Shown piece by piece: positions 60,798 to 64,000 of a stretch of 64,000 nucleotides of DNA (the stretch's first letter is position 1; each line of letters starts with the position of its first letter). The stretch spans positions 1 through 64,000 of the forward strand of contig NZ_QBDX01000003.1 of the NCBI RefSeq assembly GCF_003129605.1, given 5' to 3'. Under the pieces are notes generated by a model. That model was not told the DNA's origin. It saw only the letters and a program-made list of their open reading frames with translations, and did not search any database. This stretch comes from Hyphobacterium indicum (GTDB lineage: Bacteria > Pseudomonadota > Alphaproteobacteria > Caulobacterales > Maricaulaceae). The translations under genes and the position numbers were made by a program.

Positions 60798-61232
60798 CTA
60801 TTCGGTCGCTTCCTGACAGGTGCAGCCATAGTCATTGCAGCCGATCGTGCCCTCGACACAGATCGGTGCCATGGCCACACAGTCCGATGCCCCCGCACAC
60901 GCGCAATTGCCACTGTTGCAGGTATAGTCGGCGGTCTCTGGCGGCGGCGTGTTGGCAGCCAGGCTGGTGGCGGCCGACGACGAAGCGGATGGCGTCATGG
61001 CGCGATGCTGACGATGACCTGTCGCGCGCCCGGAGCTGACCAGAGCCGCCGCTTGCACATAATCACCGCTTTCCATTGCGGACTGGAATGCGTCACTGAA
61101 GCTTGTGTCGGTCTGAGTCTGAGCCTGCGTCTGGCGCAAGACGGCGCGTTGCTGGGCATCGACCAATGACAACTCGCCGATGGCAACGAAACCGACTGCC
61201 AGAGCCGAGATGATGAGAATGAGTCGAAGCAT
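60798..61232 (-). CDS. Small exported Cys-rich protein, unknown function
   Basis: 144 residues. Signal peptide or anchor 1-20 (MLRLILIISALAVGFVAIGE). A Gln/Thr/Ser/Ala-rich, probably unstructured middle leads to a compact tail of about 38 residues with eight cysteines (CNSGNCACAG, DCVAMAPIC, GCNDYGCTC), enough for four disulfides or a metal site. No family recognised. It follows the DUF819 gene on the same strand after about 70 bp. Confidence 0.7.
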   Translation of the reverse strand: MLRLILIISALAVGFVAIGELSLVDAQQRAVLRQTQAQTQTDTSFSDAFQSAMESGDYVQAAALVSSGRATGHRQHRAMTPSASSSAATSLAANTPPPETADYTCNSGNCACAGASDCVAMAPICVEGTIGCNDYGCTCQEATE

Positions 61233-61303: not shown

Positions 61304-62473
61304 CTAGCCGGGCCAGAACTGATAGACGGCGGTGGCAATGAGCGTACCCAGCGCATAGCCGAACACCCCGACCAGCACGCCCGGCGTCACCAGATCCTTC
61401 CAGCCCTTGGCCGCCGCCAGGGCCGGCGCCGTCGTCGCGCCCAGAATGGCGGCATTGGAAGCGGTGATGAGTTCGGGCACGGACAGGCGCAAGAGCGACC
61501 CCAGGCCGAACAGCACGATCAGATGCACCCCCAGAAGGATCGCGACCAGCGCCATCAAAAGCGGGGCCTGCTGAATCAGGGACGGGATATCCGCCCCGGC
61601 GGCAATGGCGGCAAAGAAAACAAAGGCCAGCCCGATCCCCAGCTCATACCCGCCATGAAGCCGGGCCATGGTCTTCGGCATGAGAGTCGCGGGGATAAGC
61701 GTCAGAACGGTGATCATGGCATAGCGCCAGTTTCCGGCCTGCCGCGCGGCATCTTCCACACCCATTCCTGAGAGCAGGCCGGCCAGCGCCCCTGTCAGGA
61801 GGTCGCCCAGCGCCACAATGGTCAGCGCGAAGGCAATGGTGATGGTCAGCGTGGCCGCCGTGGCCTTGCCATTCTCCCCGGCCCCGATCTCGCCTTTCGT
61901 GTGGTCACGGGCAGGAAATCTTGTGGCCAGCCAGCGCCACCCCGGCAGGATGGCGAGCAGCGCCAGGAACAGGCCTGACGCCAGATTATCCACCGCCGTC
62001 GCCGCCGAGACAAAAGCCGCATCGGCGCGCAGTCCGGTTATGTCCAGCAATGCGGCGTAATTCACAGAGCCGCCGATATAGGTGGCCGTGAACACGCCGG
62101 CGATCCCCGCCTCGTCCGCGCCGAAATCCAGCAGCGAGACAGCCGCAATCGCGCCCAGCACCGTGCCCAGGGCTGCCACGCCGAATGCCAGCGTCATGCG
62201 GCCGGTCTCGAAAAAGATTTTCTTCAGGTCCGCCTTCATCAGGAAGAGCGGGATCAGCACCGGCACGAAATAGGTGAAGACGAAGGAATAGGCCGGGGCA
62301 CTTTGTGGAATGATCCGCAGATTGGCGGCAAATATCGCCAGGAAAATTGCTACCACCGCGCCAGTCAGAATAGCCCCGATGCGGGATTTTTCGGCCAGAA
62401 AACCGATAGCGGCGATCACGAACAGCCCCGCCATGACGGCGAAATGATTGTCGGCGGGAATCAGCGTTTCCAT
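61304..62473 (-). CDS. DUF819 family integral membrane protein
   Basis: 389 residues from METLIPADNHFAVMAGLF at 62473 (GAGGGG in front); 15 codons further upstream have no membrane character. Ten to twelve helices. The segments FVPVLIPLFLMKADLKKI near 75 and GVFTATYIGGSVNYAALLDI near 130 are characteristic of the DUF819/YjcL family, thought to be carriers of unknown substrate. The second half repeats the layout of the first, as in many secondary transporters. Confidence 0.85.
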   Translation of the reverse strand: METLIPADNHFAVMAGLFVIAAIGFLAEKSRIGAILTGAVVAIFLAIFAANLRIIPQSAPAYSFVFTYFVPVLIPLFLMKADLKKIFFETGRMTLAFGVAALGTVLGAIAAVSLLDFGADEAGIAGVFTATYIGGSVNYAALLDITGLRADAAFVSAATAVDNLASGLFLALLAILPGWRWLATRFPARDHTKGEIGAGENGKATAATLTITIAFALTIVALGDLLTGALAGLLSGMGVEDAARQAGNWRYAMITVLTLIPATLMPKTMARLHGGYELGIGLAFVFFAAIAAGADIPSLIQQAPLLMALVAILLGVHLIVLFGLGSLLRLSVPELITASNAAILGATTAPALAAAKGWKDLVTPGVLVGVFGYALGTLIATAVYQFWPG

Positions 62474-62532
62474 GAAGTCAGCCCCTCTGTTTCGCGCCGC
62501 AGTTAAGCAGGCTGACACGCCCGCGCAACGCG

Positions 62533-62967
62533 TTAATGCTCACAATGGCGTCGGTCGCGGCGCACAAACCGGCTCTCCCCGGCATACCGGCCCGGCCCGC
62601 TGTCCCCGCTCTCGGTGTCCGGCGCCACCCAGCGCACCAGCGACCATTCGGTGGCGATGACATCGCCCTCGATCACGCCGGTCCAGCTGGTGATGGTGTG
62701 GCAGGTTTCCGCCTCCGCGCGCCAGACCACATTGAAGGTGATCAATGGTTCGAAGACCCGGCCTTCAACGTCATATTCGATGCCCTGGCAGGCATAGCCC
62801 GCCGCCCCGTTGACATAACGCCCGGTCAGGCGGCCCCCATCATCCATCGTATCGAGAAAAAGCACCGATCCGCTCTGGTTTTCCCAGACCGACGGCACGG
62901 CCAGATCATCCGCGAACGCTGTGGCAGGCCAGACCGCCCACAGAATCAAAAGCAGGAAACGCATCAT
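62533..62967 (-). CDS. Secreted avidin-family (rhizavidin-like) biotin-binding protein
   Basis: 144 residues; signal peptide 1-19, cleavage after AFA. The mature 125 residues follow the avidin barrel: WENQSGS (28-34), LTGRYVN (47-53), ITFNVVW (76-82), CHTITSWTG (89-97), TEWSLV (106-111). Streptavidin pocket residues N23, S27, Y43, W79, T90, W92 and W108 map to N30, S34, Y51, W82, T93, W95 and W108. Cys60 and Cys89 match the loop disulfide of dimeric rhizavidin. S88 is Thr91, and the W120 and D128 positions appear to be Tyr128 and Ser132, so affinity may be lower or the ligand different. ATG overlaps the RidA-like stop (ATGA). Confidence 0.85.
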   Translation of the reverse strand: MMRFLLLILWAVWPATAFADDLAVPSVWENQSGSVLFLDTMDDGGRLTGRYVNGAAGYACQGIEYDVEGRVFEPLITFNVVWRAEAETCHTITSWTGVIEGDVIATEWSLVRWVAPDTESGDSGPGRYAGESRFVRRDRRHCEH

Positions 62968-63362
62968 GCGTCTTCCGCCAGATAGGCGTCGGCCTCGATT
63001 TCGACCAGAAAGTCCGGCCCTGCCAGCGCGGAAATGCCATAGAGCGCCGAGGCAGGCGGGAAATCTCCGAACACAGCCGAATGCGCCCGCGCGAAGGCGG
63101 CCTGCGCATCCGCGCTCATATCGGTGACGAAAACGCGGGTGCGGCGGACATTCTTCATCGACGCGCCGAGCTTCACCAGCGCCGCCTCGATGATTTCAAG
63201 ACAGCGCCGCGTCTGGGCTTCCATGTCGCCGGGGGCATAGGGCCGGCCGTCCTCGCCGACCGCCACCGTGCCGGAGACCCAGATATGCGGGCCCTCCTTC
63301 ACAGCACGGCGATAGCCGACGCGGTCCTCCCAGACCGCGCCGGACGAGACACGTTCCACCAT
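62964..63362 (-). CDS. RidA/YjgF-family protein lacking the catalytic arginine
   Basis: 132 residues with the chorismate-mutase-like RidA fold: HIWVSGTVAVGEDG, ALVKLGASMKNVRRTRVFVT and the end LVEIEADAYL. Canonical RidA imine deaminases carry P-A-R near residue 105; here the segment reads FPPASALYGI, so the Arg is replaced, as in Rid subfamilies without deaminase activity. Overlaps the avidin-like gene by 4 bp and follows the M20 hydrolase by 2 bp. Confidence 0.88.
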   Translation of the reverse strand: MVERVSSGAVWEDRVGYRRAVKEGPHIWVSGTVAVGEDGRPYAPGDMEAQTRRCLEIIEAALVKLGASMKNVRRTRVFVTDMSADAQAAFARAHSAVFGDFPPASALYGISALAGPDFLVEIEADAYLAEDA

Positions 63363-63364
63363 GT

Positions 63365-64000
63365 CTATTGCGCGCCGGTCGGCGCCAGGAAGTCCAGCGC
63401 AATCGCGGTCAGGCCTTCGGTCGCCATGGTAATCGAGCTTTCCGCATCCGGGGCAAACAGGGCGGAGTGGTTGCCCGGTGCGGACAGCCCCTGTGACTGA
63501 TACTCGATCAGCGTGTCCTGCGGAGTGCCGCCGACCCAGAACATGAAAATCGGGATATCCTCCTCGGTGCGGCCATAGCGCGAGAAGTCCTCACCACCCA
63601 TGACGGGATCGAGCTGGCGCACGGCGAGGCTGCCAAAGCGGTCCTGCAGCACCGCGACGCCCGATTCCGTCAGGTCCGGGTCATTATAGGTGGCCGGCGT
63701 ATAGGGCTCTTCCACCTCGACAATCGGCAGACGGTCTTCCGGAATACCGGCGGAGATCGCCTGCCCGCGGGCAATGCGCTCAATGCCCGACAGCAACAAT
63801 TCGCGATTGGCATCGGAATAGGAGCGCACCGTGATCTGCAGATGCACCTCGTCCGGGATGATATTGTGCTTGGTGCCGCCATTGATCGCGCCCACCGTTA
63901 CCACGCCGGATTCCAGCGGGTTCATCTCGCGGCTGACCAGCGTCTGCAAGGCAGTGATGATCTGGGCCGACAACAGGACCGGGTCACGGCCGACATGCGG
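63365..64000 (-). CDS. M20-family amidohydrolase, C-terminal part
   Basis: The 212 residues present begin PHVGRDPVLLSAQIITALQ and continue off the window, so the N-terminal metal-binding half is missing. Seen: the dimerisation domain with GAINGGTKHNIIPDEVHLQI, and the late catalytic-domain motifs DPVMGGEDFSRYG and APGNHSALFAPD with metal-ligand Glu/His. The pattern fits M20D aminoacylase/hippurate hydrolase enzymes that cleave N-acyl amino acids. First gene of the set leading to the RidA-like and avidin-like proteins. Confidence 0.9.
   Translation of the reverse strand, partial: PHVGRDPVLLSAQIITALQTLVSREMNPLESGVVTVGAINGGTKHNIIPDEVHLQITVRSYSDANRELLLSGIERIARGQAISAGIPEDRLPIVEVEEPYTPATYNDPDLTESGVAVLQDRFGSLAVRQLDPVMGGEDFSRYGRTEEDIPIFMFWVGGTPQDTLIEYQSQGLSAPGNHSALFAPDAESSITMATEGLTAIALDFLAPTGAQ

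Follow-up and report, generated by a model that had tools for sequence, protein, structure and literature searches.

The window, which here means the whole stretch of 64,000 nucleotides from Hyphobacterium indicum that was analysed, carries towards its end a gene for an avidin. This gene lies on the minus strand, with the genes for a RidA/L-PSP family protein and an M20 amidohydrolase on its upstream side and the gene for a DUF819 membrane protein on its downstream side. The features and what each of them rests on are as follows.

61304..62518, minus strand: DUF819 membrane protein, downstream of the avidin (Pfam DUF819, 2e-63)
62533..62967, minus strand: avidin gene, 144 aa (open frame, Pfam Avidin match and homologues in the genus)
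62572..62574, minus strand: Ser132, at the place of streptavidin Asp128 (alignments)
62632..62634, minus strand: Arg112, at the place of streptavidin Ser112 (column 112; invariant in the five aligned genus proteins)
62701..62703, minus strand: Cys89, the L5,6 loop cysteine and expected partner of Cys60 (Cys in 19 of 19 disulfide-type rows, column 86)
62788..62790, minus strand: Cys60, the L3,4 loop cysteine of disulfide avidins (invariant in the five aligned genus proteins)
62794..62796, minus strand: Tyr58, at the place of shwanavidin Phe43 (alignments; Tyr in all six genus copies)
62908..62967, minus strand: probable signal peptide, residues 1-20 (sequence read by eye)
62964..63362, minus strand: RidA/L-PSP gene, directly upstream of the avidin (Pfam Ribonuc_L-PSP, 3.7e-20)
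63365..64000, minus strand: C-terminal part of an M20 amidohydrolase gene that runs past the window end (M20_dimer, 9e-10, above its cut-off; Peptidase_M20 just below, for a cut fragment)

Judged by its sequence, the product of 62533-62967 is a genuine avidin and a conserved member of the disulfide-type avidins. The Pfam Avidin family (PF01382) matches residues 26-115 with an E-value of 3.4e-10 and 40.8 bits against a cut-off of 24, which bears out the first-pass annotation of this DNA in its choice of family, and in a Pfam search of the whole genome this protein is the sole avidin. The same family is matched at E <= 0.001 in all five aligned members of the genus. The score against the NCBIfam streptavidin equivalog NF047623 is 19.4 bits, far under the required 300. 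Among PDB sequences, phmmer found wilavidin (7.9e-23), shwanavidin (1e-20) and rhizavidin (1.5e-16), and a profile of the five genus members found wilavidin at 6.7e-29. The N-terminus, MMRFLLLILWAVWPATAFA followed by DD (the junction reads AFA/DD), is hydrophobic and by eye resembles the signal peptide that had been proposed for it, and the avidin is likely to be exported; a pattern search found no lipobox in this N-terminus. Promoter-like sites (2 versus 0.5 in shuffles) and terminator-like sites (7 versus 2.5) were also found, every one of them inside genes.

An antisense frame at 62536-62985, in register with the avidin frame, was considered as a real gene and rejected: the Pfam and PDB matches belong to the avidin frame, and in genome G302 the antisense frame is interrupted by two stops. 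The near-identical pair formed by the window's own genome (G000) and G303 cannot choose between the frames, since its antisense dN and dS (0.033 and 0.07) equal those of the sense frame (0.034 and 0.069).

The AlphaFold2 model (single chain, five-row alignment) has eight strands, a mean pLDDT of 78.8 and a pTM of 0.72, and by this prediction the protein is an eight-stranded antiparallel avidin barrel, as had been expected of it. The 50 Foldseek matches listed comprise 47 disulfide-type avidins, under the names wilavidin, shwanavidin, rhizavidin, bradavidin II, afifavidin and agroavidin, and 3 of an engineered streptavidin/rhizavidin hybrid; biotin complexes are present among them, the best E-value is 1.0e-9 and the TM-scores by target length are 0.72-0.90. 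Cysteines 60 and 89, in which the first-pass annotation had recognised the pair of dimeric-type avidins, are both invariant across the five aligned genus proteins. In a tree of 47 rows (the 48 of the alignment less L046, with the Asp128 column left out), the 19 disulfide-type rows stand on one side of a branch supported at 99/97. Cys60 takes the place of shwanavidin Cys45 and rhizavidin Cys50 in the numbering of PMC5398887, where a Cys in L3,4 and another in L5,6 are described as a feature of the disulfide (dimeric) avidins. We infer from this likeness a Cys60-Cys89 disulfide and a dimer. The cysteines alone are no proof of a dimer, because according to PMC5398887 a disulfide of this kind is also present in bradavidin, which is a tetramer and has the first Cys one residue earlier, and bradavidin II can change its oligomeric state. 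In the model, residues 81-90, which contain Cys89, average a pLDDT of 59.

In a protein search of 99 related genomes, 19 had a match, including six of the eight genomes of the genus, namely the window's own, G303 (92%), G302 (67%), G301 (53%), G299 (55%) and G143, where the avidin is in two pieces. The same search gave no avidin match in G300 and G304, and the genus profile gives the same six of eight. In a class-wide search this profile had matches in 4 of 385 genomes, one of them the window's own; a scan of a genome collection gave one record, a 92% copy in the MAG RI_462, which is probably the same as the G303 copy; and a scan of viral contigs, made with two peptide patterns only, gave 36 pattern stretches and no relative. 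Of 299 genomes of the order, 26 have an avidin by Pfam search.

The two genus genomes without a match, together with the frame shifts in the G143 avidin and a G303 frame that ends six codons before that of the window, could be read as signs of a decaying avidin heading for loss, whose change at Asp128 (see below) would be without adaptive meaning. However, other genes of that G143 stretch, M20 and DUF819 among them, are broken too, which makes an assembly error likelier than decay, and G303 loses only the tail that follows the barrel. Furthermore, in nine of the ten genus pairs dN stays well below dS (0.17-0.51 against 0.80-1.91, ratios 0.21-0.47), which points to moderate purifying selection on the avidin in the genus, and its pocket residues are invariant apart from one place mentioned below. 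Decay is thus a highly improbable explanation. The G143 stretch (L052) comes from a single-contig genome, and its genes are split over several frames, as would result from long reads left uncorrected.

The biotin pocket was compared in a MAFFT alignment of 48 rows, of which 19 are of the disulfide type (five from the genus and 14 others). Asn30, Ser34, Tyr51, Trp82, Thr93, Trp95, Trp108 and Leu110 match streptavidin N23, S27, Y43, W79, T90, W92, W108 and L110, respectively, so that most of the pocket is indeed kept, as the sequence had first been read. By eye Asn53 stands at streptavidin S45, in keeping with what PMC5398887 says about bradavidin Asn33; the longer loop of the disulfide-type rows puts their printed column 45 out of place. 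The pocket residues are invariant in the five aligned genus proteins except at the place of Ser88, which is either Ser or Thr. The Thr seen there at first reading is present (Thr91) and is not distinctive, because Thr also occurs in G303, G302 and two Bradyrhizobium plasmid avidins (L060 and L061), and Ser in G301 and G299. These pocket residues favour biotin as the ligand.

The place of Trp120 had been read as Tyr, and this is not supported: the window protein has Gly in column 120 and Tyr128 in column 124. Trp is absent from column 120 in all 19 disulfide-type rows, although the alignment at this column is soft because the strand 7-8 stretch is gappy. As far as the alignment goes, a missing Trp120 is normal in disulfide-type avidins. 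Tyr58 is a likelier stand-in for Trp120 than the supposed Tyr equivalent in column 120. The loop that carries it reads AAGYAC (Tyr58, Cys60) in the window protein and AAGFAC in shwanavidin (Phe43 and Cys45, counted from the printed chain, the latter in agreement with the numbering of PMC5398887). The PDB title of 3t2x names shwanavidin F43A as a low-affinity mutant, and its printed sequence differs from the wild type at the place of Phe43. Moreover, PMC5398887 describes how, in rhizavidin and hoefavidin, the equivalent L3,4 residue closes in on biotin, notes a similar effect for shwanavidin and bradavidin II, and cites mutagenesis in which the disulfide was important in shwanavidin and rhizavidin. 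Tyr58 may thus close the pocket and is a candidate stand-in for Trp120.

The place of Asp128 is Ser in all six genus copies (five of five aligned rows and the G143 piece), as had been noticed for the window protein. Of the other 14 disulfide-type rows, 13 have Asp there, two of these (L056 and bradavidin II) being near-copies, and agroavidin has Asn. By these alignments the change from Asp128 to Ser is genus-wide. Glu131 was considered as a shifted substitute for Asp128 and rejected, since G302 and the G143 piece have Val at this position. The protein had also been called a natural pocket variant, which applies to the place of Asp128 and not to that of Trp120, where the loss is the rule of the group.

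Its description as rhizavidin-like stands as to the disulfide type, and its nearest relatives are others. On the tree the genus is joined at 98/94, and the genus together with bradavidin II-like rows at 93/88, which makes bradavidin II (Bradyrhizobium; PDB 4ggr/4ggt/4ggz) the nearest characterised protein; it shares the disulfide pair, lacks Trp120 and has Phe at the place of Tyr58, whereas it has Asp at 128, Phe at the place of Tyr43, Tyr at 112 and a gap at the place of Trp79. Wilavidin (7ouq) and shwanavidin (3szh), the best matches in sequence and fold, have the disulfide pair and Tyr or Phe at the place of Tyr58, but they keep Asp128 (wilavidin reads GED where the window protein reads GES) and have Ile or Val at 112. 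Rhizavidin (Rhizobium etli; 3ew1/3ew2) also has the disulfide pair, no Trp120 and Asn at the place of Ser45, but it has Thr at the place of Tyr58, keeps Asp128 and is 36% identical over 74% of the query. Agroavidin (8amh) is another natural disulfide-type avidin with a changed Asp128 place, although its residue is Asn and not Ser, and it has Phe instead of Tyr43. A survey of 2021 (PMC8033661) places the bacterial avidins in 11 clades, one of them dimeric. In the literature on dimeric or disulfide avidins and on streptavidin D128A, that survey included, the text covered does not describe the window protein, and no papers were found under the names wilavidin, afifavidin and agroavidin.

The place of Asp128 is altered in a second lineage as well. 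Twenty-two non-disulfide rows, taken from the order-wide Pfam search and the 99-genome protein search and all from the window's bacterial family (L004, L007-L009, L012-L024, L036, L038, L039, L042 and L046), have Ser or Ala at 128 and, in 22 of 22, Trp at the place of Trp120. These avidins, for example L012 and L021, resemble the window protein in Ser or Ala at 128 and in Arg or Lys at 112, but they have no Cys at the place of Cys89 and a gap at the place of Trp79, and they stand on the separate side of the tree. Asp versus not-Asp at 128 needs three state changes on the tree, which may be read as one each in the genus, in agroavidin and in the Ser/Ala avidins of the same bacterial family. A first tree, made with another model and with the Asp128 column kept, gave the same placement, although rerooting may have displaced the support labels printed on it; the tree program flagged L005, L058, streptavidin and agroavidin as long branches.

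The neighbourhood of the avidin is also kept in the genus. The M20 and RidA genes are next upstream in all six avidin-bearing genomes, the end of RidA overlaps the start of the avidin by 4 bases in the window and in G303, and the order M20-RidA-avidin-DUF819 is found in G000, G303, G299, G301 (where some 500 bases separate the RidA and avidin matches) and, in pieces, G143. In G302 the order on a 7.2 kb contig is M20-RidA-amino-acid permease-avidin (the permease by Pfam), and no DUF819 match was found on this contig at 1e-4, with a short remnant visible by eye. The full M20 copy of G303 matches Peptidase_M20 at 2.6e-27, and the N-terminus of the window's M20, which lies beyond the window end, is signal-like (MRLLLASAAAIALSAGAFAQ). 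The avidin is likely in an operon with M20 and RidA, and the three would be co-transcribed. M20 and RidA families act on amino-acid compounds. Two genomes have parts of the array without avidin: G304 has M20, RidA, a protein that by eye closely resembles the G302 permease, and a DUF819 match of 18 residues, and G300 has M20, with RidA, avidin and DUF819 unmatched in an 11 kb stretch. Together with G302 they make the avidin look like a guest in an amino-acid-conjugate array. Downstream of DUF819, at 60798-61232 on the minus strand, lies the gene for a small Cys-rich protein with a signal-like N-terminus, which has no significant Pfam or NCBIfam match; a similar one (by eye) lies downstream of the G302 avidin.

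With signal-like N-termini on both proteins and the close linkage just described, the exported M20 amidohydrolase might act on biotinyl-lysine or biotinyl peptides to set biotin free, which the avidin might hold outside the cell. This kind of salvage is nevertheless very unlikely. The biotin synthesis gene bioB is above cut-off in seven of the eight genus genomes (the eighth, G301, is 69% complete), so the host probably makes its own biotin, and BioY was found in none of the eight. The array of G304 indicates that the enzymes are independent of the avidin, and the distance between RidA and avidin in G301 also speaks against such a partnership. In addition, 38 stretches around other avidins, which mostly cover about 1.5 kb per side (L026 and L053 are the same gene), contain no M20, RidA or DUF819 match, and no paper was found linking biocytin with an M20 amidohydrolase. 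Biotin auxotrophy as the reason for the avidin was likewise rejected, with bioB in seven and birA in all eight of the genus genomes.

We consider it quite probable that the gene encodes an exported disulfide-type avidin which binds biotin with lowered and more reversible affinity and which is likely in an operon with M20 and RidA. The barrel would fold in the periplasm or outside the cell, with the L3,4 loop held over the pocket by Cys60-Cys89 and the ligand covered by Tyr58 of this loop in place of the Trp120 of a neighbouring subunit. Biotin would be held by Asn30, Ser34, Tyr51, Asn53, Trp82, Thr91, Thr93, Trp95 and Trp108, and the role of the protein may be the holding back of biotin or biotinyl compounds. 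With Ser132 where the ureido-bonding Asp128 stood, biotin should be bound less strongly than by rhizavidin or streptavidin, and released faster. Asp128 is among the most studied contacts of streptavidin and has been probed mainly by engineered mutants. If a native disulfide-type avidin has fixed Ser at this place, it shows how the family copes without Asp128, and the window avidin could be a ready-made reversible biotin binder.

The losses measured by ITC in streptavidin are 4.3 kcal/mol for S45A, 4.4 for D128A and 10.1 for both together (PMC4888747), and D128 helps to control the movement of water around its area (PMC2761383). From a femtomolar start a loss of 4.4 kcal/mol would still leave tight binding, and because the residue is Ser and not Ala, D128A is only a proxy for Ser132. 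The change is shared in kind, as far as the compared sequences go, by agroavidin (Asn), by chicken avidin (Asn118 at this place, PMC5398887) and by the second lineage of the family (Ser or Ala).

Arg112, invariant in the five aligned genus proteins, stands at the place of Ser112, which we take to be the mouth of the pocket. Arg or Lys occupies 112 in all 27 Ser/Ala-128 rows (five from the genus and 22 others); of the 20 Asp rows 5 have one of the two, and the single Asn row has neither. Since this link rests on about two independent losses it carries no statistical weight and is suggestive only. The loss of Asp128 and a basic residue near the mouth could mean that the pocket has been retuned to another ligand, for example an amino-acid conjugate, acylated or with a carboxylate, on which the neighbouring M20 enzyme acts, a possibility to which the substrates of the M20 and RidA families lend something. 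This is decidedly unlikely, for the remaining pocket residues are kept and chicken avidin, with Asn at the place of Asp128, binds biotin at about 1e-15 M (PMC6382169). A wider proposal, that two avidin lineages of one family gave up Asp128 for Ser or Ala with a basic residue at 112 and were retuned either for easy release of biotin or for another, acidic ligand, the one in the window working with the exported M20 amidohydrolase, also appears rather unlikely. According to PMC8033661 the biological role of bacterial avidins is still open and their function cannot be judged without experiments, competition and defence being discussed as roles; the neighbourhood kept within the genus is one small handle on it.

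Three further observations concern other avidins of the set. The avidin-like open frames on the Bradyrhizobium plasmids (L060 and L061) have no listed gene beneath them; the gene table is incomplete and the original records may annotate them. L027 (G128) has from about position 1501 a frame of 262 aa with an avidin domain at residues 2-104 (Pfam, 4.3e-07) and by eye a second avidin-like repeat, the second half alone being unrecognised by Pfam. A literature search joining bacterial avidins with lipoprotein gave no paper, and a lipobox (strict pattern, start codons guessed) is present in 11 of the 27 non-disulfide avidins with a readable N-terminus, all 11 from the window's family (L008, L009, L013, L014, L020-L024, L036 and L042), so that some of these may be membrane-anchored lipoproteins.
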